A DNA stretch of 46,424 nucleotides from Flavobacteriales bacterium (GTDB lineage: Bacteria; Bacteroidota; Bacteroidia; Flavobacteriales_C; GCA-002722245). The position numbers and the translations under genes are program-made. The stretch lies in contig PBLA01000005.1 in NCBI GenBank assembly GCA_002722245.1, forward strand, positions 38,833-85,256. The letters run 5' to 3'. This document shows positions 25,860-34,983 of this stretch, one piece after another; position 1 is the stretch's first letter; every line of letters starts with the position of its first letter. The notes under the pieces are model-generated. The model was not told the origin of the DNA and searched no databases. It saw only the letters and a program-made list of their open reading frames with translations.

Positions 25860-27809
25860 ATGATCAGACTTTTCTTACTTTTTCTAGGTTTTTTTATAAC
25901 AAGTGTTGTTGTTTCTCAAAAATTAGAATGGGAGGGAATTCCTGCATATAAATTGGCTAGACCCAATTGGGATGAGTATAAATGGGAAAGGAGGCAGTTT
26001 GACTCTTCTTTAGTAAATGTTTTAACAAAAAGTAAAAGACTTCCTGCTATTAAAGGGTTTGATTTTATGAACCCATATAAATGCATTCACCAGTCCATTG
26101 GGAATTTTTCTTATTTACCTTCAGCACGATATTACATGCCAGATTTAAATGCTTATACTTTTGAAAATACCAAGGAAGTTATTTGTTTTGGCTATTCTTC
26201 TGAATATACTTCCAAATTTTTCAAACCTTTTTATTTTAAGAATCAAGAAGTTTCGGTTGGAGAATATAGAGAGTTTTTACATTACGTAAAAGATTCGATT
26301 ATTAGGTCGCATGCAGGAGAGGAAGATCCAGATCGTTATTTGATAGATGAAGGAGAATATATGTCGAGATTGAATTGGAAAAAGAAACTTCCTGATTATA
26401 GAAATGATATAAACTGGACTTGGTTACTTGATTTACTTTATGATAAAGTCGCTAGCTATAAAAAAGACGATGATTCTATTTATATTTTTCAAAAAGATCG
26501 GTTAGTATATGAGGGATGGTTTGTAAATAAGAAATGTCCAGACAATTTATATGATTTGTCGGAGTGTTTAGAGAGGAGAGAGACTAATGTATTTCCTGAT
26601 ACTTTGACCTGGATTAGGCATTTTCCTTATTCATGGAACGAACCCATAGCTAAGGTTTATAATTGGCATCCTTTTTACGAAAACTATCCGATTGTAGGCT
26701 TGAATTACGAACAGGTTCAAGCATTTTTAAATTGGAAAGAAAAACAATTAAACAAGAAATATAAAAAAAGAAATTTCACATTTAAATTATCGCTTCCTAA
26801 CCCTATTGAATATGAATATGCAGTAAGCACTTCATTTGTTAAGAAAAGGTTTGATTCAAGAATAAAAGAAAATGAATCGATATTTTTAAATGCAGGAGAT
26901 AAAGTAAAATTTTACTCTTTGATACTTAAGGATTCCGTTTGCTCCAATAGGAGAGAAAAGATTAACAAAGAGAGAAATATTAACCCGTACTCTATTAGTG
27001 CAGGTAATTTTGTTTTTGATGGTTTGATGCACACTGGTCCTGTTGATTTTGTATCAGAAGATTATCCTAAACTTCATATTCTTACTAATGGAATTAAGCA
27101 TTTAGGGAGTAATGTTTCTGAATGGATGGATTACTCTTTTGAGGAATATAAAAGATATTTTGATTGTCAAAATACAACTTCTTCTAATGAAGGAAAGAAA
27201 TGGAATGATGATTACAGAATGGTTATGGGTGGAAATTGGTATGATGAGAAAACAACTCTGAATTATGGAGCTCCTTTAAATTCAATTTACTCTAAAACAT
27301 TTGCTCATAAGGATTCTGCTTTTTGTACAGTTGGATTTAGATATGTAATTCGAATTATTCAAAAACCAGAATCAGAAAGTAAGTATATGGATGGTATTAA
27401 TAATCCTGTTCCAAATGTAAATTGTTTTGATTCTCTTTCACCTGCAATGGTTAAGAAATTACCAAATGTTTTCACAAAATTAAGGTCATTAGGTTATAAG
27501 GTGATCTTGGATTCTCTAATAAAAAAGAATATCCGACAAATTATTTTTGTGCCACAAGGATTGGAGGTGAAAACTATTAATCAGAATGTATATTATAGAG
27601 ATTCGATAAGTAGAATATATATAAGAATTGTTCCAGAGAATTTAAGGACGAGACGCCAAGAAGAATTTAAGCGGTATTTAAAGCCATTTGTGAGCGGAGA
27701 TGATAGCTTTTATTCGATTACTAGTAAAAGTGACAAGTTAATAGGCCTTTATACGTATAAATTATTTGATCAAGGGATTATTATTTTGTCTCAAAGGGTG
27801 TTTAATTAA
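25860..27809 (+). CDS. GldK-like SUMF1-domain exported protein with C-terminal extension
   Basis: A 649-residue exported protein with signal peptide 1-19 (VVVSQ) and no lipobox, unlike classical GldK/GldJ lipoproteins. Residues about 118-500 are a sulfatase-modifying-factor-like domain with GldK-style features: NQEVSVGEYREFLHYVKDSI, DTLTWIRHFPYSWNEPI, NWHPFYENYPIVGLN, LGSNVSEWMDYS, MVMGGNWYDEKT, CTVGFRYVIRI. Residues 515-649 are an extra basic domain I cannot assign. In T9SS bacteria GldK forms the periplasmic ring with GldN. This gene is alone, without gldLMN, so it is probably a paralogue. The position after DUF4835 is often held by recN in relatives. Confidence 0.7.
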   Translation: MIRLFLLFLGFFITSVVVSQKLEWEGIPAYKLARPNWDEYKWERRQFDSSLVNVLTKSKRLPAIKGFDFMNPYKCIHQSIGNFSYLPSARYYMPDLNAYTFENTKEVICFGYSSEYTSKFFKPFYFKNQEVSVGEYREFLHYVKDSIIRSHAGEEDPDRYLIDEGEYMSRLNWKKKLPDYRNDINWTWLLDLLYDKVASYKKDDDSIYIFQKDRLVYEGWFVNKKCPDNLYDLSECLERRETNVFPDTLTWIRHFPYSWNEPIAKVYNWHPFYENYPIVGLNYEQVQAFLNWKEKQLNKKYKKRNFTFKLSLPNPIEYEYAVSTSFVKKRFDSRIKENESIFLNAGDKVKFYSLILKDSVCSNRREKINKERNINPYSISAGNFVFDGLMHTGPVDFVSEDYPKLHILTNGIKHLGSNVSEWMDYSFEEYKRYFDCQNTTSSNEGKKWNDDYRMVMGGNWYDEKTTLNYGAPLNSIYSKTFAHKDSAFCTVGFRYVIRIIQKPESESKYMDGINNPVPNVNCFDSLSPAMVKKLPNVFTKLRSLGYKVILDSLIKKNIRQIIFVPQGLEVKTINQNVYYRDSISRIYIRIVPENLRTRRQEEFKRYLKPFVSGDDSFYSITSKSDKLIGLYTYKLFDQGIIILSQRVFN

Positions 27810-27868: not shown

Positions 27869-28255
27869 TTATTTTTCTTCTTCCTCCTCCTCAGCAACTT
27901 CTTCTTCCTCAGCTATAACAGCTTCCTCTTCCTCTTCTTCCTTAGCAACATCTTCCTCTTCTTCATTGCCTTGATATTCATTTGAATATTCTTCAGAGGT
28001 ATCCTGATTATTCACTTCTTCATCAATTTCTATAGGACTCGGAGCCACTGGTGTTTTTGAAGCTTCTTCTAGCGCTTCAATTAATCCAGGAACAACTTTA
28101 TATGCTTTTTTATATCTATCGCACAATAATTTTAACACAACAGCTTCTTGGCCTTTAAATTCTTGCACCATTTTTCCCACTTTCTTCACTTGTCTGGGGT
28201 GATATAGGCTAAAAAAATCTGTAAGTAACTTTTCAAAATTGTTTACCACTGACAT
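27869..28255 (-). CDS. Small protein with Glu-rich acidic tail, unknown function
   Basis: I do not recognise this 128-residue protein. The N-terminal 70 residues look folded and basic (FEKLLTDFFSLYHPRQVKKV, then VVLKLLCDRYKKAYKVVPGL). From about residue 85 the chain is disordered, and the last 45 residues are mostly Glu. The frame is open to 28309, but the ATG at 28255 is favoured because the added 18 residues are AT-driven and hydrophobic. No signal peptide. It is divergent from the ECF sigma gene, sharing a 134-bp intergenic region, so common regulation is possible. Confidence 0.6.
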   Translation of the reverse strand: MSVVNNFEKLLTDFFSLYHPRQVKKVGKMVQEFKGQEAVVLKLLCDRYKKAYKVVPGLIEALEEASKTPVAPSPIEIDEEVNNQDTSEEYSNEYQGNEEEEDVAKEEEEEEAVIAEEEEVAEEEEEEK

Positions 28256-28389
28256 AATCCAAACTATTACTTTAATTATTTCTTGAAAATTAAGCAATTT
28301 TACGCACACCTTGTAACTTTTAAAGAAATTAATTGTTTTAAAACCAAAACTTAGAGAAATTTAGGTTTGAACTCGGGATTAAGTAGGTA

Positions 28390-28875
28390 TTGACAAAAGA
28401 GGATTACAATAGTGCAGTAAAGGATTTAAGTCATCGTTTGTACGGCTTTGTTTTCAAGTTAACAAAGGATGAAGAAGATGCTAATGATTTAGTCCAAGAT
28501 GCCTTTATGAAATTGTGGGCAAACCGAAAGAAAGTTGAGTTAAAGAAAGCGAAATCTTGGTTGTTTACTACGGCTTATAATGCCTTTATAAATTTTATAA
28601 AAAAAAGTAATAGACAAACAAGAATGGATGAAGGAATGGATATTTCCGTAAATGCTAAAAATCGTTTTGAACTGAAAGAGATCATCGATATGGCTATGGA
28701 AAAGCTTCCAGAACTTCAAAAGTCTATTTTACTGTTGCGTGACCTGGAGGGCTACAATTACAAAGAAATAGGAGAAATGTTGAACCTCAATGAATCCCAA
28801 GTAAAGGTGTATTTATTTAGAGCTAGAAAAAAAATTAAAGATCAAATTAAAGACCTAAGCATATTAAAAATATGA
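28390..28875 (+). CDS. ECF-type RNA polymerase sigma factor
   Basis: A 161-residue extracytoplasmic-function sigma factor with only regions 2 and 4. Region 2 is LYGFVFKLTKDEEDANDLVQ with DAFMKLW; region 4 is the C-terminal helix-turn-helix PELQKSILLLRDLEGYNYKE, then LNLNESQVKVYLFRARKKI. The start is TTG: an in-frame stop lies at 28384-28386, and no internal ATG retains region 2. Its TGA overlaps the ATG of the anti-sigma gene (ATGA, 28872-28875), so the two are translated together. Its regulon is unknown; the T9SS-type genes downstream are candidates. Confidence 0.92.
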   Translation: MTKEDYNSAVKDLSHRLYGFVFKLTKDEEDANDLVQDAFMKLWANRKKVELKKAKSWLFTTAYNAFINFIKKSNRQTRMDEGMDISVNAKNRFELKEIIDMAMEKLPELQKSILLLRDLEGYNYKEIGEMLNLNESQVKVYLFRARKKIKDQIKDLSILKI

Positions 28876-30587
28876 TTGGAAAAGAAAATATAGAACAAAA
28901 GATTTTTGAATATTTCGAAGGAGATCTTTCAATAGCTGAATCGAAAGAGCTGGAAGTGTTCATTAAAAATAATCCAGAATATCAGGTGGATTTTGATGCT
29001 TGGCAGCAAAGCACACTGCCGAACGAGAATTTGCAGTATAAATATAGTGACGATTTACTGGTAAATGAAAAGACATCGCCCAAAGGTTGGGTGAAATGGG
29101 TTTCAGGTGGTGCATTCTTACTTGTTGTAGCTTTTGCTTCTGCAGGTTTACTCATGAAGTTCGACAGTGTAGACAATCGCTTAGCTTCGGCTCATGAAAG
29201 CTCTATAGTAGAATCTGATAACAGGCACCTTACATCGCGTAAAACAGGAAAGACTTTACATGATAATAGTGAAGTGGTATTCCAAAATAGTAATCAGGAT
29301 ATTCGTGTTGTTGAATCTAATAATTCAAAGGAACTAGATCAATTGACAGAAGATCGTTTTCTTAACAAAAATTATGGTAAACCATATGTAGATTCGAAAG
29401 ATGTGGAGAAGTCTTCATTTGTTAGTGATATTCAAACACCTTCTTCTGCGATCGGTTCAGACTTTCGACGAGAGGATACAAACGAGAAGGCATTTAATGC
29501 AAAAGAAAGAAGGGATAGTAATCTTCTTATTCCTAGTTTTAAAGGAACAAAAGATCAAATAAATCCTCAAAAGATATCAAGTGTTTCTAAAGTTAATGCA
29601 CGAAGAGAGGAAACGTTTTTTTACTCGATAGACATTCCTTTAAAAAAAGCCAAGTTTTCTTATGAAAATCCAAATGAACCTTCTTTTTACCTTACCAATA
29701 GGAAAGATCCTTACTTAAATTATGCACTTGCACATACGTTGGAAGAACAAGGGAGTTTTGCAGGTAATGGAGGTGAAGGGATAAGGGCAGAGCATCTCTA
29801 CAGATCAGAGTGGCCCTCAGTAACAACTGATAATTTCACTTCGCAAATACTTTCATTGGACGGAAGAGTTGGCAATCATGGTATTGGATTAATTGTAAAT
29901 GCAGATAGAATTGGTCATGGGAAATTAAATTCTACTTCATTATCTCTTATTTATTCGCCAAAATTATTGATTCAAGGTATAAGTATTGAACCTTCTTTTA
30001 AGGTTACTGGAAATCAAAAAAGCATAGCGTGGAATCAAATTGATCAAAATGATGTGAAAGATCCAAGAAATGGCGTTTTATATGCGTCGATACCATTTAC
30101 TCCTGAAGAGGTTTTAAAGTCAACAATTACCAATGCAGATTTTGGTGCGGGTATTTTGGTTAATGCGAAGAAATTTTTTGTTGGTGCACAAGTAGATCAT
30201 ATAGTTTCGCCCTCGTATTCTAAAGAATACTTTGATCGTGACATTACTATTCCTGCAAAAATTTCGGCTATGTTAGGAACAGATATTTTAAGTAATAAGG
30301 ATGGTCAATTTATGTTTAGCCCATCATTAAACTTTGTGCAGTTTGGTAATTACATGGCCTTATGGTCAAATGCACAAATTTCTTATCAAGGATTTTTCTT
30401 TGCGGGAGGTCTTGCTACAAATGAAGAATTTATGGCGAGCCTTGGTTATGGTAATGGTAAAGTTCGTTTGGTTTACGGTCTTGGATTTACAAAACCAAGT
30501 GAGTTTTCAGGATTAGTTGTGAATAACAAATATTACGAATCGCATCAGTTTAGTTTAAGGGTTCATCTTCAGCCTAAAAAAAGGTAA
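28872..30587 (+). CDS. Anti-sigma factor fused to a PorP/SprF-like outer-membrane barrel
   Basis: A 571-residue protein with four parts. Residues 1-70 are an acidic cytoplasmic anti-sigma-like domain (KIFEYFEGDLSIAESKELE) with no zinc motif. One membrane helix follows (about 76-96, WVSGGAFLLVVAFASAGLL). Residues about 97-280 are a polar, low-complexity linker. Residues about 280-571 resemble PorP/SprF (YLNYALAHT, LYRSEWPSV, GIGLIVNADRIGHG), collinear with the PorP encoded next door. There is no N-terminal signal peptide; the helix would act as signal anchor. It would thus span both membranes, like the dual-membrane-spanning anti-sigma factors (Dma) reported in Bacteroides as I recall. It overlaps the sigma gene by 4 bp. 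Confidence 0.82.
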   Translation: MIGKENIEQKIFEYFEGDLSIAESKELEVFIKNNPEYQVDFDAWQQSTLPNENLQYKYSDDLLVNEKTSPKGWVKWVSGGAFLLVVAFASAGLLMKFDSVDNRLASAHESSIVESDNRHLTSRKTGKTLHDNSEVVFQNSNQDIRVVESNNSKELDQLTEDRFLNKNYGKPYVDSKDVEKSSFVSDIQTPSSAIGSDFRREDTNEKAFNAKERRDSNLLIPSFKGTKDQINPQKISSVSKVNARREETFFYSIDIPLKKAKFSYENPNEPSFYLTNRKDPYLNYALAHTLEEQGSFAGNGGEGIRAEHLYRSEWPSVTTDNFTSQILSLDGRVGNHGIGLIVNADRIGHGKLNSTSLSLIYSPKLLIQGISIEPSFKVTGNQKSIAWNQIDQNDVKDPRNGVLYASIPFTPEEVLKSTITNADFGAGILVNAKKFFVGAQVDHIVSPSYSKEYFDRDITIPAKISAMLGTDILSNKDGQFMFSPSLNFVQFGNYMALWSNAQISYQGFFFAGGLATNEEFMASLGYGNGKVRLVYGLGFTKPSEFSGLVVNNKYYESHQFSLRVHLQPKKR

Positions 30588-30604
30588 TTGACATTTTTTA
30601 TTTT

Positions 30605-30624
30605 CGCGATAACGTTTAATCGCG
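30605..30624. promoter_or_regulatory. Hairpin between the anti-sigma and porP genes
   Basis: CGCGAT (30605-30610) pairs perfectly with ATCGCG (30619-30624) across an 8-nt loop. It has no T-run, so it is not a simple terminator. It lies 40 bp before the porP ATG and could be an operator, processing site or leader structure. Confidence 0.45.
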
Positions 30625-30663
30625 GAGCAGGCACAACGCTGTTTAATCTTAATTTATTTAATT

Positions 30664-31626
30664 ATGAAAAGCAAGTTGTATGTCTTTTTGGTATTTATCG
30701 GTATTTATTTTGTTTCAAACGCACAGGATAATCACTATTCTCAGTTTTATGCAAACAAATTGTATTTAAACCCTGCTTTTGCAGGCACAGATGTTTGTCC
30801 AAGAGTAATTTTAGCGTTTAGAGATCAATGGCCAGGATTAGCAGGAGAGTACGTAAGTTATTCTGCTTCCTATGACCAATCTCTAAATAATATGGGGGTA
30901 GGACTCATTTTTAATGCAGATGATGCAGGAAAGGGGGTTTTAAAAACCAATAATATTGGAGTTATAATGAGTCCTAAAGTTCAATTAGATCAAAACTGGA
31001 CACTATCTTTTGCCATTGAAGCAGGTGTGATTCAAAAAAGGCTGGATCATTCTTCCTTGGTTTTTCCTGATCAAATTGATCCAATATTGGGGCAAGTTTC
31101 AAACATTCAGGAAATTAATGAAAACAAAAGTATTTTAAGATCTGATTTGCAATCAGGGATAATGCTTTATGCTAAACATATGCACATGGGGTATTCTGTA
31201 CATCACGTATTAATGCCGAATATATCTCTAATTGATCAGGTAGATTCTCTAAATCGAAGACATACTGCACATGTGGGGTGGAATATACCTTTGTATTCAC
31301 TACCGCATGAACGTAGATTAGGAATAGGCCCAAAATTATCTCCACAAATCATTTTTCAGCAGCAAGGTCCCGCATCTGAGCTGAATATTGGTTTATACTA
31401 CACCAAAAATAGATTAACAACAGGGATTTGGTATAGAAATACTGATGCTTTGGTCTTGCTTGTAGGAGTGCAGACCAAAAAATTTAATTTTGGATTTAGC
31501 TATGATGCAACAATTAGTAAATTATCAACAAATTCAATGGGGGCGTTTGAATTGAGTACAGCGTACAGATTTAATTGCCGTCCTAAAAAGAAAACACCTC
31601 AAAAAATGATTTGTCCTTCATTTTAG
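30664..31626 (+). CDS. PorP/SprF family type IX secretion outer-membrane protein
   Basis: A 320-residue outer-membrane beta-barrel with signal peptide 1-20 (FVSNAQ). Family hallmarks follow at once: DNHYSQFYANKLYLNPAFAG, FRDQWPGL, YSASYDQSLNNMGVGLIFN, DDAGKGVLKTNNIG. By family knowledge SprF-type proteins sit beside genes for type B cargo and help that cargo leave or attach to the surface, as SprF does for SprB. The next gene encodes exactly such a cargo. It follows the anti-sigma/barrel gene by 76 bp and probably belongs to the same unit. Confidence 0.93.
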   Translation: MKSKLYVFLVFIGIYFVSNAQDNHYSQFYANKLYLNPAFAGTDVCPRVILAFRDQWPGLAGEYVSYSASYDQSLNNMGVGLIFNADDAGKGVLKTNNIGVIMSPKVQLDQNWTLSFAIEAGVIQKRLDHSSLVFPDQIDPILGQVSNIQEINENKSILRSDLQSGIMLYAKHMHMGYSVHHVLMPNISLIDQVDSLNRRHTAHVGWNIPLYSLPHERRLGIGPKLSPQIIFQQQGPASELNIGLYYTKNRLTTGIWYRNTDALVLLVGVQTKKFNFGFSYDATISKLSTNSMGAFELSTAYRFNCRPKKKTPQKMICPSF

Positions 31627-31684
31627 CAACTTTTTTATAAAAAGGTGTCTTAAGTGTACTAATGGCTTAATTTTTGTTAGTAAA

Positions 31685-31716
31685 TTGATCATTGTAAATT
31701 CTATTGGTTACCTTTA
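31685..31716 (+). promoter_or_regulatory. Candidate promoter of the 1085-residue cargo gene (TTG-N21-TACCTTTA)
   Basis: TTG at 31685-31687 and TACCTTTA at 31709-31716 are 21 bp apart, close to the Bacteroidota pattern but with A for the last G. It predicts a leader of about 6 nt. The cargo could thus be transcribed apart from porP. Confidence 0.45.
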
Positions 31717-31725
31717 AATACCGCT

Positions 31726-34700
31726 ATGACAAAGGTCTTGATTTTCTTAATGCTGTCTTTTTCTTTACTTGCACAGCAAGAATACAATCAGTGGAGGTTT
31801 GGTTATGGTGCAGGAATCGATTTCAATAGCGGAAGCCCCATCCCCGTATCAGGGAGTTCTATTTTCTCGCAAGAATCCGCGGCGAGCGTAGCGGATTGCT
31901 TTGGAAATCTTTTATTCTATACTGATGGTGAAACAATATGGTCGAATAATGACGGTGTTATGGAGGGGGGTACAGGTTTAAATGGATTGCCAGGAAGATA
32001 TCCATCCACTCAAGGTTCCTTGATTGTAAAAAGACCTCAGAGTTCCTCTATCTATTATGTGTTTACAGCTTCAGATATATATGGATTAAATTATTCGGTG
32101 GTTAACATGGCTGCCAATAATGGTTTAGGACGTGTCATTCAAAAAAATGTCAAAGTTTCGAGTGGATTAACCCATAAATTAGCTGTTACCTATCACGAAA
32201 ACGAAATCGATATTTGGGTACTCACTCATTATGAAAACTCAAGTAAATATGAAGCATTTTTAGTCACTCAAACAGGTGTTTCTTCCACGTCTGTTGTGAG
32301 TGAAACAGGCCCCAGCCATACTAGTGCTCATGGGGAGATGAAAGTAAACAGACAAGGCACAAAAGTTGCAGCAGTTGTGCAAGATCAGGATTTGGTTACT
32401 TTGGCAGATTTTGATAATGCCACAGGGGAAATATCAAATGCCATTGGTATATTAGATGTTGTTGGTAAACCTCATGGTTGTGAATTTTCTGCCACAGGTA
32501 ACAAAATGTATGTAACGGGTTGGGGAGCTTTTAAAGGTGGTGTTTATCAATTTACAGTGGGTTCCTCTAATTCAAATACTTTAACAATTGGACGTACAAA
32601 TATATCCGGTTCTTTTAAACCTCTTGGATCTCTTCAATTAGCCCCTGATAATAAAATTTATGTTGCACACGATCCAGATTTGGATTTACCGGGGAATCGA
32701 TTTTTGGGGATTATCCACAATCCTGAAAACGATGGGGATTTGGCTTCTTTTCAAAGGGAGGGATTAAATCTTGGTACTGGTTTTAGCTCATGGCAATTGC
32801 CAAATGTAACGTTAACCAGTAATGAAATTTATGAGGACAAAAGTATTTTGTCTTCAAATTATTGTGTAAATGAGGAAACTGCTTTTTCACTGTCCAATAC
32901 CTCTGGAGTTGTCGATGTTTTATGGGATTTTGATGACCCTTCCTCTGGCGTTGATAATTATTCTAATAATCAAGAGGCGTTTCATCAATACAGCACGCCT
33001 GGCACCTATACTGTTAAAGTCACTGTAACAACTACCTGTGAGGTAAAAGATTATTTTGAAACAATTGTAATTAATGATGGTCCAGAATCAAATCTAGGGC
33101 TTCAAAATATTTGTGCTAATACAGATTATTTAATTGGTGGAGAAACTGAATTCGGAGTGACTTATTCTTGGATGCCCGACGTTGGATTAAACAATAACAC
33201 CTTAGCAAATCCTAGGTTTAACTCCTCAGGTTTAACGCAAGATACGTTTAATATTATTTATACCGCTACGACATTAGGTGGTTGTGTTACTGTTGATACG
33301 CTTTCTCTTTATGTTTTGCCCCAAGAAGGTGCTGTTGAAGATCAAACGTTGTGTCCAGGGTTTGGTGTTACCTTGGGTGTAGACTCTGGTGTTGTAAATG
33401 CACTATGGGATGGTGTTAATATTTCGGACAATCAAAGTTTATCGCCATTTGTTTCACCTACAGTAACTTCAGTTTATACAGCGAGCTTAACCGATACAAA
33501 TGGTTGTTTGAGTTTCGATACTGTCTTAGTGTTTGTATCTCCAATTGTTCCTCTTGATGCAGGAGAATCATCTTCAATTTGTTACGGAGATTCAATTGTG
33601 ATAGGGAATAATATTTCTCCAGACAGTACACTTTTTCAGTGGAGTCCTGAATTGAATGTAGAGTTTGCTTCAGAGGGTGAAACAAATGCATTCCCAGAGG
33701 TTTCTTCATGGTTTTATTTAACCGCTACGAATGATACTTGTTCATCAACAGATTCAGTGTTTATTCCTGTTCATGACCTCCCAGAGGTTAGGCTAAATCC
33801 GAAAGATTCGGTTTTGTGTCAAAAAGAGGAAATTGAAATTAAGGCAGGCGGAGCGTTAATTTATTCATGGGAGTCAACAGCAGAAGTGACGGAAAATACT
33901 GGATTCATATCAGCAATTGCTGATTCGTCTTTTATTGTGATTGTTGAAGGAATAGATTCGAATAATTGCGTGAGTGTGGATACCTCTTCAATTGGTGTTC
34001 TACCCCTTCCGCAGCCCGTTCTTACCAATGATACTGCTGTGTGTGAGGATCAGCCAATTACTTTGCGTATCAGCGGGGGAGTTTCATATCGTTGGTTGAA
34101 TGGAAGTATTGCAGGACTAACAGATAGTGTAATAACTTTTGTTTCTTTAGATGAAAATCAAACGTTCTTTGTTGAAGTTACTGGTGAAAATGGTTGTAAC
34201 ACCTTAGATACAGTTGTTGTGATGGTTGATTCTTTACCTAAAATAATTATGATGAGCGATACCTTGATTTGTGAAGGAGGGAAAGCCTTTTTGTGGGCTA
34301 GTGGTGCAGAGGATTATAGTTGGTCACCTTCGAATTATTTAAATGAAACTACTGGTGATTATCTTGTGGCAGTTCCCGAGGATTCGATTACCTATAAGGT
34401 TGTAGGAACTGATGGGAATGGATGTATAGATTCTGCTGAGGCGTCAATTCAGCTAAACATAAATCCAACTGTAGGGTTTACATACGATTATACATCTACA
34501 TGTGCTGGGTTTGAAGTGCAATTTTCTGATAGTAGTTTAAATGCCGAAAGTTACAACTGGCAATTTGGTGATGGGAACACTTCTACAGAGCAGAGTCCAT
34601 TTTATGTGTATAAATTTGGAAGTAATTTGATTACAAGCTTAATTGTAGGAAATAATGACCTTTGCTTTGATACACTATCGGTTCCATTTTACTGGCAAAA

Positions 34701-34983
34701 AATTTCAGAATTCATTGACGTATTTGCTCCAAATATTATAACACCGAATAACGATGCTTTAAATGATTGTTTTGAAATACGTGTTCCTGCTGAGTTTGAA
34801 AATTGCACCCATTATTCTATTTTTAATCGATGGGGAATGAAGGTTTTTGACTCAGATCTTTTTGATGGTCAGTTTTGTGGTGTAAGTGGATATAATAATC
34901 AAGCAGTTTCAGAGGGTACCTATTATTATGTAATGGAAGTCGGCGACTACATTTTGAATGGGTTTATTCAAGTTATTCGATAG
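31726..34983 (+). CDS. Large T9SS cargo with PKD/Ig-like modules and type B sorting domain
   Basis: A 1085-residue surface protein. Signal peptide 1-16 (LLAQ). Residues about 18-365 resemble the propeller-like N-terminal region common in PorP-linked cargo (WRFGYGAGIDFNSG, LFYTDGETIW, GSLQLAPDNKIYVA). A PKD domain (VLWDFDDPSSGV, TPGTYTVKVTV) is near 385-455. Several Cys-containing Ig-like modules follow (DTAVCEDQPITLRISGG, DTLICEGGKAFLWASGA). A second PKD domain has YNWQFGDGNTSTEQSP. Residues about 998-1085 are the type B sorting domain (FAPNIITPNNDALNDCFEI, FNRWGMKVFDS, GTYYYVMEV). It follows porP by 99 bp and is its likely partner. Confidence 0.9.
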   Translation: MTKVLIFLMLSFSLLAQQEYNQWRFGYGAGIDFNSGSPIPVSGSSIFSQESAASVADCFGNLLFYTDGETIWSNNDGVMEGGTGLNGLPGRYPSTQGSLIVKRPQSSSIYYVFTASDIYGLNYSVVNMAANNGLGRVIQKNVKVSSGLTHKLAVTYHENEIDIWVLTHYENSSKYEAFLVTQTGVSSTSVVSETGPSHTSAHGEMKVNRQGTKVAAVVQDQDLVTLADFDNATGEISNAIGILDVVGKPHGCEFSATGNKMYVTGWGAFKGGVYQFTVGSSNSNTLTIGRTNISGSFKPLGSLQLAPDNKIYVAHDPDLDLPGNRFLGIIHNPENDGDLASFQREGLNLGTGFSSWQLPNVTLTSNEIYEDKSILSSNYCVNEETAFSLSNTSGVVDVLWDFDDPSSGVDNYSNNQEAFHQYSTPGTYTVKVTVTTTCEVKDYFETIVINDGPESNLGLQNICANTDYLIGGETEFGVTYSWMPDVGLNNNTLANPRFNSSGLTQDTFNIIYTATTLGGCVTVDTLSLYVLPQEGAVEDQTLCPGFGVTLGVDSGVVNALWDGVNISDNQSLSPFVSPTVTSVYTASLTDTNGCLSFDTVLVFVSPIVPLDAGESSSICYGDSIVIGNNISPDSTLFQWSPELNVEFASEGETNAFPEVSSWFYLTATNDTCSSTDSVFIPVHDLPEVRLNPKDSVLCQKEEIEIKAGGALIYSWESTAEVTENTGFISAIADSSFIVIVEGIDSNNCVSVDTSSIGVLPLPQPVLTNDTAVCEDQPITLRISGGVSYRWLNGSIAGLTDSVITFVSLDENQTFFVEVTGENGCNTLDTVVVMVDSLPKIIMMSDTLICEGGKAFLWASGAEDYSWSPSNYLNETTGDYLVAVPEDSITYKVVGTDGNGCIDSAEASIQLNINPTVGFTYDYTSTCAGFEVQFSDSSLNAESYNWQFGDGNTSTEQSPFYVYKFGSNLITSLIVGNNDLCFDTLSVPFYWQKISEFIDVFAPNIITPNNDALNDCFEIRVPAEFENCTHYSIFNRWGMKVFDSDLFDGQFCGVSGYNNQAVSEGTYYYVMEVGDYILNGFIQVIR

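Follow-up and report, generated by a model that had tools for sequence, protein, structure and literature searches.

A predicted anti-sigma factor carrying a PorP-type barrel as a candidate trans-envelope switch for type IX secretion genes in Flavobacteriales

Within a 46,424-nucleotide stretch of Flavobacteriales DNA (the whole of which is termed the window), four same-strand ORFs at positions 28390-34983 encode an ECF sigma factor, a fusion protein joining a predicted anti-sigma head to a PorP-derived barrel, a stand-alone PorP/SprF protein and a type B cargo protein of the type IX secretion system (T9SS). On balance we lean towards reading this locus as a trans-envelope switch that would govern some of the type IX secretion genes: the head of the fusion would hold the sigma factor at the inner membrane, whilst the PorP-derived barrel at its other end would sit in the outer membrane, with a disordered tether joining both ends and the state of the barrel deciding sigma release. 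Once freed, the sigma factor would read TGTAAC-N15/16-TTGTTTTA promoters, the putative targets being its own operon (sigma, fusion and PorP carrier) and a set of type B cargo genes in the family to which the window belongs. At the outer membrane, the fused barrel would probably monitor type B cargo or the export of such cargo: depending on whether cargo sorting domains are bound or absent, barrel and tether would change state, and with them the grip of the head on the sigma factor.

The sigma gene (28390..28875, + strand; 161 aa, TTG start) encodes Sigma70 regions 2 and 4 (Pfam Sigma70_r2/r4), and the best NCBIfam match of its product is the GFO_1088/PG0214 ECF family (NF058625), with 130.1 bits against a curated cut-off of 130; the Crocinitomix algicola sigma factor reaches 134.1 bits and the remaining relatives score under the cut-off. 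It shares 4 bp (28872-28875) with the fusion gene (28872..30587, + strand; 571 aa), which is followed by the stand-alone PorP/SprF gene (30664..31626, + strand; 198 and 225 bits with the Pfam and NCBIfam profiles), whose product exhibits a signal peptide, an NPAFAG motif and a C-x-CPSF tail, and by the cargo gene (31726..34983, + strand; 1085 aa), whose product exhibits PKD, Ig_7 and CHU_C domains (Pfam, NCBIfam). The sorting domain of the cargo corresponds to the CHU_C match at residues 1001-1082 (66 bits), with TIGR04131 giving 30.4 bits and thus remaining below its cut-off of 35. No terminator-like site was found between the PorP and cargo genes of the window. This layout agrees with the first-pass annotation of the DNA, which had placed the four ORFs, the 4-bp overlap and the downstream PorP/SprF and 1085-residue type B cargo genes in the same manner.

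The architecture of the fusion was analysed using Pfam and NCBIfam profiles, conservation and an AlphaFold model built with an alignment of 41 relatives. The head (residues 1-70; 28872..29081, + strand) comprises three helices (4-16, 21-33 and 35-47; pLDDT about 90-95) and is acidic, with 15 D/E against 6 K/R. A single helix at residues 73-107 covers the membrane-helix core (residues 76-96; 29097..29159, + strand), which is also apparent from the hydropathy of the relatives, and is followed by the disordered tether (residues 101-269; 29172..29678, + strand; pLDDT < 50). The C-terminal barrel (residues 272-571; 29685..30584, + strand) displays 14 strands between residues 304 and 566 and is matched by PorP_SprF (PF11751; residues 295-563, 75.3 bits, cut-off 22.3) and TIGR03519 (91.7 bits, cut-off 90.55). 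Foldseek matched the model to FadL-type barrels and to chain F of the T9SS translocon entries 8gl6 and 6h3i, which we take to be PorV; these two gave the highest query TM-scores among the matches listed (0.36 and 0.34), values that are low because of the long disordered part of the fusion. Sequence conservation mirrors this organisation: head and barrel are conserved, whilst the tether is not, and no conserved site was seen in the tether. Pfam detected no FecR domain in the fusion, and the conserved unit includes no receptor gene. Thus, the acidic cytoplasmic head, the single membrane helix at about 76-96 and the PorP/SprF-like barrel described in the first-pass annotation are all recovered, as is its low-complexity linker, albeit with a length nearer 170 than the 185 residues given there. 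The expectation that the protein spans both membranes is likewise supported by the predicted architecture, from which we infer that one chain reaches from the inner to the outer membrane.

Comparison within the order revealed the full-length fusion in 8 of 10 genomes, with the two genomes lacking it being 74% and 77% complete; in seven other genomes of the family it is kept at 30-55% identity with a variable linker. A class-wide search restricted to the top three candidates per genome, in which fusions might be masked by stand-alone PorPs, was complemented by a search with the head alone. From 84,980 species genomes, a scan that started from a short pattern in the head and took no account of neighbouring genes, although not exhaustive, returned 43 loci in records labelled Crocinitomix, Brumimicrobium, Fluviicola, Lishizhenia and other Flavobacteriales. 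The ECF gene lies directly 5' of the fusion in all 43 (overlap mostly 4 or 1 bp) and a stand-alone PorP directly 3' in 34/34 loci long enough to show it, the remaining nine being cut off within the fusion or no more than about 270 bp past it. Full-length conservation in independent assemblies rules out chance or an assembly artefact as the origin of the fusion. Across the class, nearly all members with a sufficiently long locus have this head beside an ECF gene, including those in which the head is barrel-free; gene position and conservation therefore back the proposed ECF/anti-sigma pairing, and the head is best regarded as a putative anti-sigma domain. The four-gene order that had been suggested as the unit did not hold: sigma, fusion and PorP are conserved, but the cargo gene varies. 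Type B cargo adjoins the unit only in the genus of the window (3/3 unit-bearing genomes) and one genome of the sister genus has a different adjacent cargo (L074/L082), which rules out the cargo as a fixed fourth gene. The TTG start of the sigma gene recurs at nearly all 43 loci, with ATG in L090. At one locus (L076, 11412-12376, genome G009), a frameshift or assembly error splits the unit's stand-alone PorP gene into a pair of ORFs.

Upstream of the sigma gene, 78 bp 5' of its start, lies a predicted ECF promoter, TGTAAC-N15-TTGTTTTA (28312..28340, + strand). The motif TGTAAC-N15/16-TTGT is present upstream of the sigma gene in 43/43 loci with upstream DNA (the window included), and would plausibly be read by the neighbouring sigma factor. 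In other Bacteroidia, related sigma genes whose partners are double-headed and lack a barrel mostly exhibit TGTAAC followed by a CGTC or CGTT-like second box, resembling the CGT box of the SM6 promoters from Flavobacterium psychrophilum (PMC9723704). The second box changes in step with the presence of the barrel: mostly CGTC in the barrel-free double-head loci (L141-L151), TTGT in the PorP-barrel branch (L079-L121).

In order to define a regulon, we used exact matches to TGTAACN{15,16}TTGTYYTA in 19 genomes with the reversed motif as control, as a two-mismatch scan of the window's own genome gave no excess over the reversed control (94 vs 121). Exact sites numbered 90 against 17 for the control across the 19 genomes, and 55 against 4 in the window's family (eight genomes). 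Behind the non-operon sites in this family, 23 of 33 complete downstream ORFs end in a CHU_C domain, whilst the expected share is about 1.7% (382 CHU_C matches across the eight genomes, 30-72 per genome, over an assumed ~23,000 genes). By homology group, type B cargo accounts for 8/13 groups (binomial p about 7e-12), a figure to be read with the caveat that sites in related genomes are not independent. Clear sites in the window's own genome precede the sigma operon and a gene at G000:C1:89990 (L228), the product of which resembles the window cargo and has relatives that carry CHU_C, its own 3' end being lost at the contig edge; two weak matches lie inside an ORF (L230) and before a short GH18 fragment (L229). 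Based on the shared promoter and the cargo share of 23/33 against ~1.7%, the sigma factor probably drives a regulon of T9SS cargo genes in addition to its own operon. The link to type B cargo proposed in the first-pass annotation therefore stands by way of this genome-wide promoter and not by way of the adjacent cargo gene, which is unconserved. The more distant Crocinitomix-type genomes showed CHU_C in 0/18 complete proteins downstream of promoter sites; among these proteins are two PorP-like ones and several that resemble lipoproteins or outer-membrane proteins. A family of lipoproteins of about 120 residues was observed behind the motif in five genomes of the sister genus (L235, L247, L259, L260 and L272; motif to gene 311-321 bp), and one member that was scanned gave no Pfam or NCBIfam match.

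The fused barrel and its stand-alone neighbours belong to the same sequence family and share the 14-strand fold of the PorP/SprF shuttle or anchor (PMC9143113, PMC12618676, PMC12635249), yet differ in the features of a carrier. An NPA..G motif near the N-terminus is found in 30/30 complete downstream PorPs and in 3/41 fusions; a twin-cysteine C-x(9-16)-C tail, usually ending CPSF and common also in other stand-alone PorPs of the class, is found in 30/30 and 0/41, respectively. The fused barrel also has no signal peptide of its own directly before it, with head, inner-membrane helix and tether found there instead. As these carrier features were checked and are absent, we do not class the fusion as a PorP shuttle. 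In SprF, the carrier is bonded through C-tail cysteines to the GldK track (PMC12635249), although the motif there is C-x-C rather than the C-x(9-16)-C of the neighbouring PorPs, which makes the parallel suggestive only. The PorP-derived fused barrel thus appears to be tethered to the inner membrane by its N-terminus rather than by a C-tail, and to judge from its motifs it looks like a carrier turned sensor; loss of these motifs could also mean that it has lost cargo binding. Behind one promoter motif, a DUF4139 (MuiA-family) protein (L288, 2575-4320, genome G395) ends in KKFRTVSCPSF, as many PorPs do, and the CPSF-type tail may be a shared docking signal.

A second unit in the window's own genome (L009, 4194-7167, G000:C22; relatives L157-L163), conserved in the family, comprises a different ECF factor and a 584-residue fusion, together with a small lipoprotein that bears a type B CTD. 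The 584-residue protein combines a helical head unlike that of the first unit with a membrane helix, a disordered tether and a PorP-type barrel (PorP_SprF 46-86 bits in the six copies tested); its low-confidence model (mean pLDDT 52), used for the strand count alone, has 14 strands. The small CTD protein adjoins the unit at 6/6 readable loci, one of them just below the CHU_C cut-off. Judging by these profiles, PorP-type barrels are attached to two distinct heads. Type B cargo is the candidate ligand of the first fused barrel because type B CTDs are bound by proteins of the PorP type (PMC9143113, PMC12618676), because type B cargo and carrier make up the predicted regulon, and because a small type B CTD protein accompanies the barrel of the second unit; cells might thus use the fusion to sense their own secretion. 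With some doubt, we advance the more specific proposal that a PorP barrel stripped of its carrier features and placed on an anti-sigma head would bind arriving type B sorting domains and gate the ECF sigma factor that makes cargo and carrier, a relay-free loop reporting secretion status across both membranes, and that the PorP barrel would have been recruited in this way onto two anti-sigma heads. The first-pass annotation had likewise suggested that the barrel could sense cargo or secretion status and pull on the anti-sigma domain with neither a separate receptor nor a protease relay.

The closest known system is the Dma (dual membrane-spanning anti-sigma) family that accompanies ECF21 sigma factors in Bacteroides thetaiotaomicron (PMC13088901), a precedent named in the first-pass annotation that indeed exists in the literature, and the unit is best read as a T9SS-dedicated variant of such anti-sigmas. 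Dma proteins share the order of N-terminal anti-sigma domain, membrane helix, long disordered tether and C-terminal barrel, adjoin an ECF gene and are confined to Bacteroidota (PMC13088901). The fusion shows the same order of parts in one chain (AlphaFold, Pfam), and the ECF gene adjoins it in the window as in the 43 loci; we class the unit as Dma-like on these two grounds and not as a confirmed Dma member. It differs in its PorP/SprF-type 14-stranded barrel, in the stand-alone PorP as constant third gene, in a sigma factor that resembles the GFO_1088 family, and in a predicted regulon of T9SS cargo rather than of vesiculation and polysaccharide-utilisation genes (PMC13088901).

The main rival to the switch is sensing of outer-membrane protein assembly by a biogenesis sensor of the general Dma sort: failed insertion of the barrel would expose the tether to proteolysis and so free the sigma factor, with the PorP type being incidental or reporting only PorP/OMP assembly. 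This would fit the observation that in another family the same ECF factor and head are joined to an OMP_b-brl_2 barrel (L131, L132), as well as the OMP-like, PorP-like and lipoprotein genes, none of them CHU_C cargo, behind Crocinitomix-type promoters and the missing carrier motifs; we nevertheless regard it as rather unlikely, given that the predicted regulon in the window's family is mostly type B cargo and that the PorP barrel is found on two distinct heads, both of which have type B components of the T9SS as neighbours. Together with the second unit and a split first unit in the sister genus (L078, 3738-5804, G007:C24: ECF gene, a head protein of 221 residues and a PorP-like barrel encoded separately behind a signal peptide of its own), the OMP_b-brl_2 version indicates that head and barrel are modular. 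The split version would also suit periplasmic cleavage of the fusion, leaving an ordinary one-helix anti-sigma and an outer-membrane protein that merely share a gene, but this is improbable: every one of the 41 aligned full-length relatives keeps the fusion with a tether of similar length, and the tether exhibits no conserved site. That the head activates the sigma factor or merely recruits it to the membrane, with no inhibition, could be read from the missing match of the head to Pfam or PDB anti-sigma sequences, but is very improbable indeed when the usual ECF/anti-sigma pattern (overlapping genes, one membrane helix, a small helical head and an apparently autoregulated promoter) is seen here and the head lies beside ECF genes across the class.

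For the trans-envelope switch, then, we count the conserved ECF/fusion/PorP order, the 14-strand model with its FadL- and T9SS-type fold matches, the head beside ECF genes, the promoter at 43/43 loci, the cargo enrichment, the loss of carrier motifs and the second, different head with a PorP-type barrel beside a type B CTD lipoprotein. Against it we count that the head, compared by sequence with Pfam and with solved structures in the PDB, matches no known anti-sigma family and no structure, the 0/18 cargo in Crocinitomix-type genomes, the same sigma factor and head with another barrel type, the possibility that carrier-motif loss reflects lost cargo binding and the non-independence of sites in related genomes.

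Other systems share single aspects of this switch. The PorA-PorXY-SigP pathway of P. gingivalis also has an autoregulated ECF sigma factor controlling T9SS genes, and a surface CTD protein that feeds back on SigP across the envelope; it differs by using a two-component relay with no barrel anti-sigma, and PorA is confined to Porphyromonas (PMC7712824). The SM6 promoters are probable ECF promoters 5' of T9SS component genes and also upstream of an ECF/anti-sigma pair, but have a conserved CGT in the -10 box instead of TTGT and precede T9SS components instead of type B cargo (PMC9723704). FecI/FecR/TonB-receptor cell-surface signalling likewise places an ECF sigma factor under the control of outer-membrane state, whereas receptor and anti-sigma are separate proteins there and one chain in this unit. 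Our literature search, limited to open-licence papers, found no published PorP-type barrel on an anti-sigma factor; the shared promoter and the genome-wide prediction of a cargo regulon are new here. The unit would offer a one-protein route for reporting the arrival of T9SS cargo at the surface, and suggests that Dma-type anti-sigmas are a scaffold taking barrels with specific jobs rather than one barrel design. As promoter and regulon are predicted and hosts such as Crocinitomix catalasitica ATCC 23190 are in culture, the question is testable.

Two further genes were observed upstream of the unit in the window. At 25860-27809, a GldK-like protein adjoining PorD scores 145 bits against a cut-off of 350 and resembles a GldK paralogue. 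A gene at 27869-28309 (minus strand), divergent from the sigma gene, encodes a protein with a very glutamate-rich C-terminus and is kept beside sigma in both other unit-bearing genomes of the window's genus.
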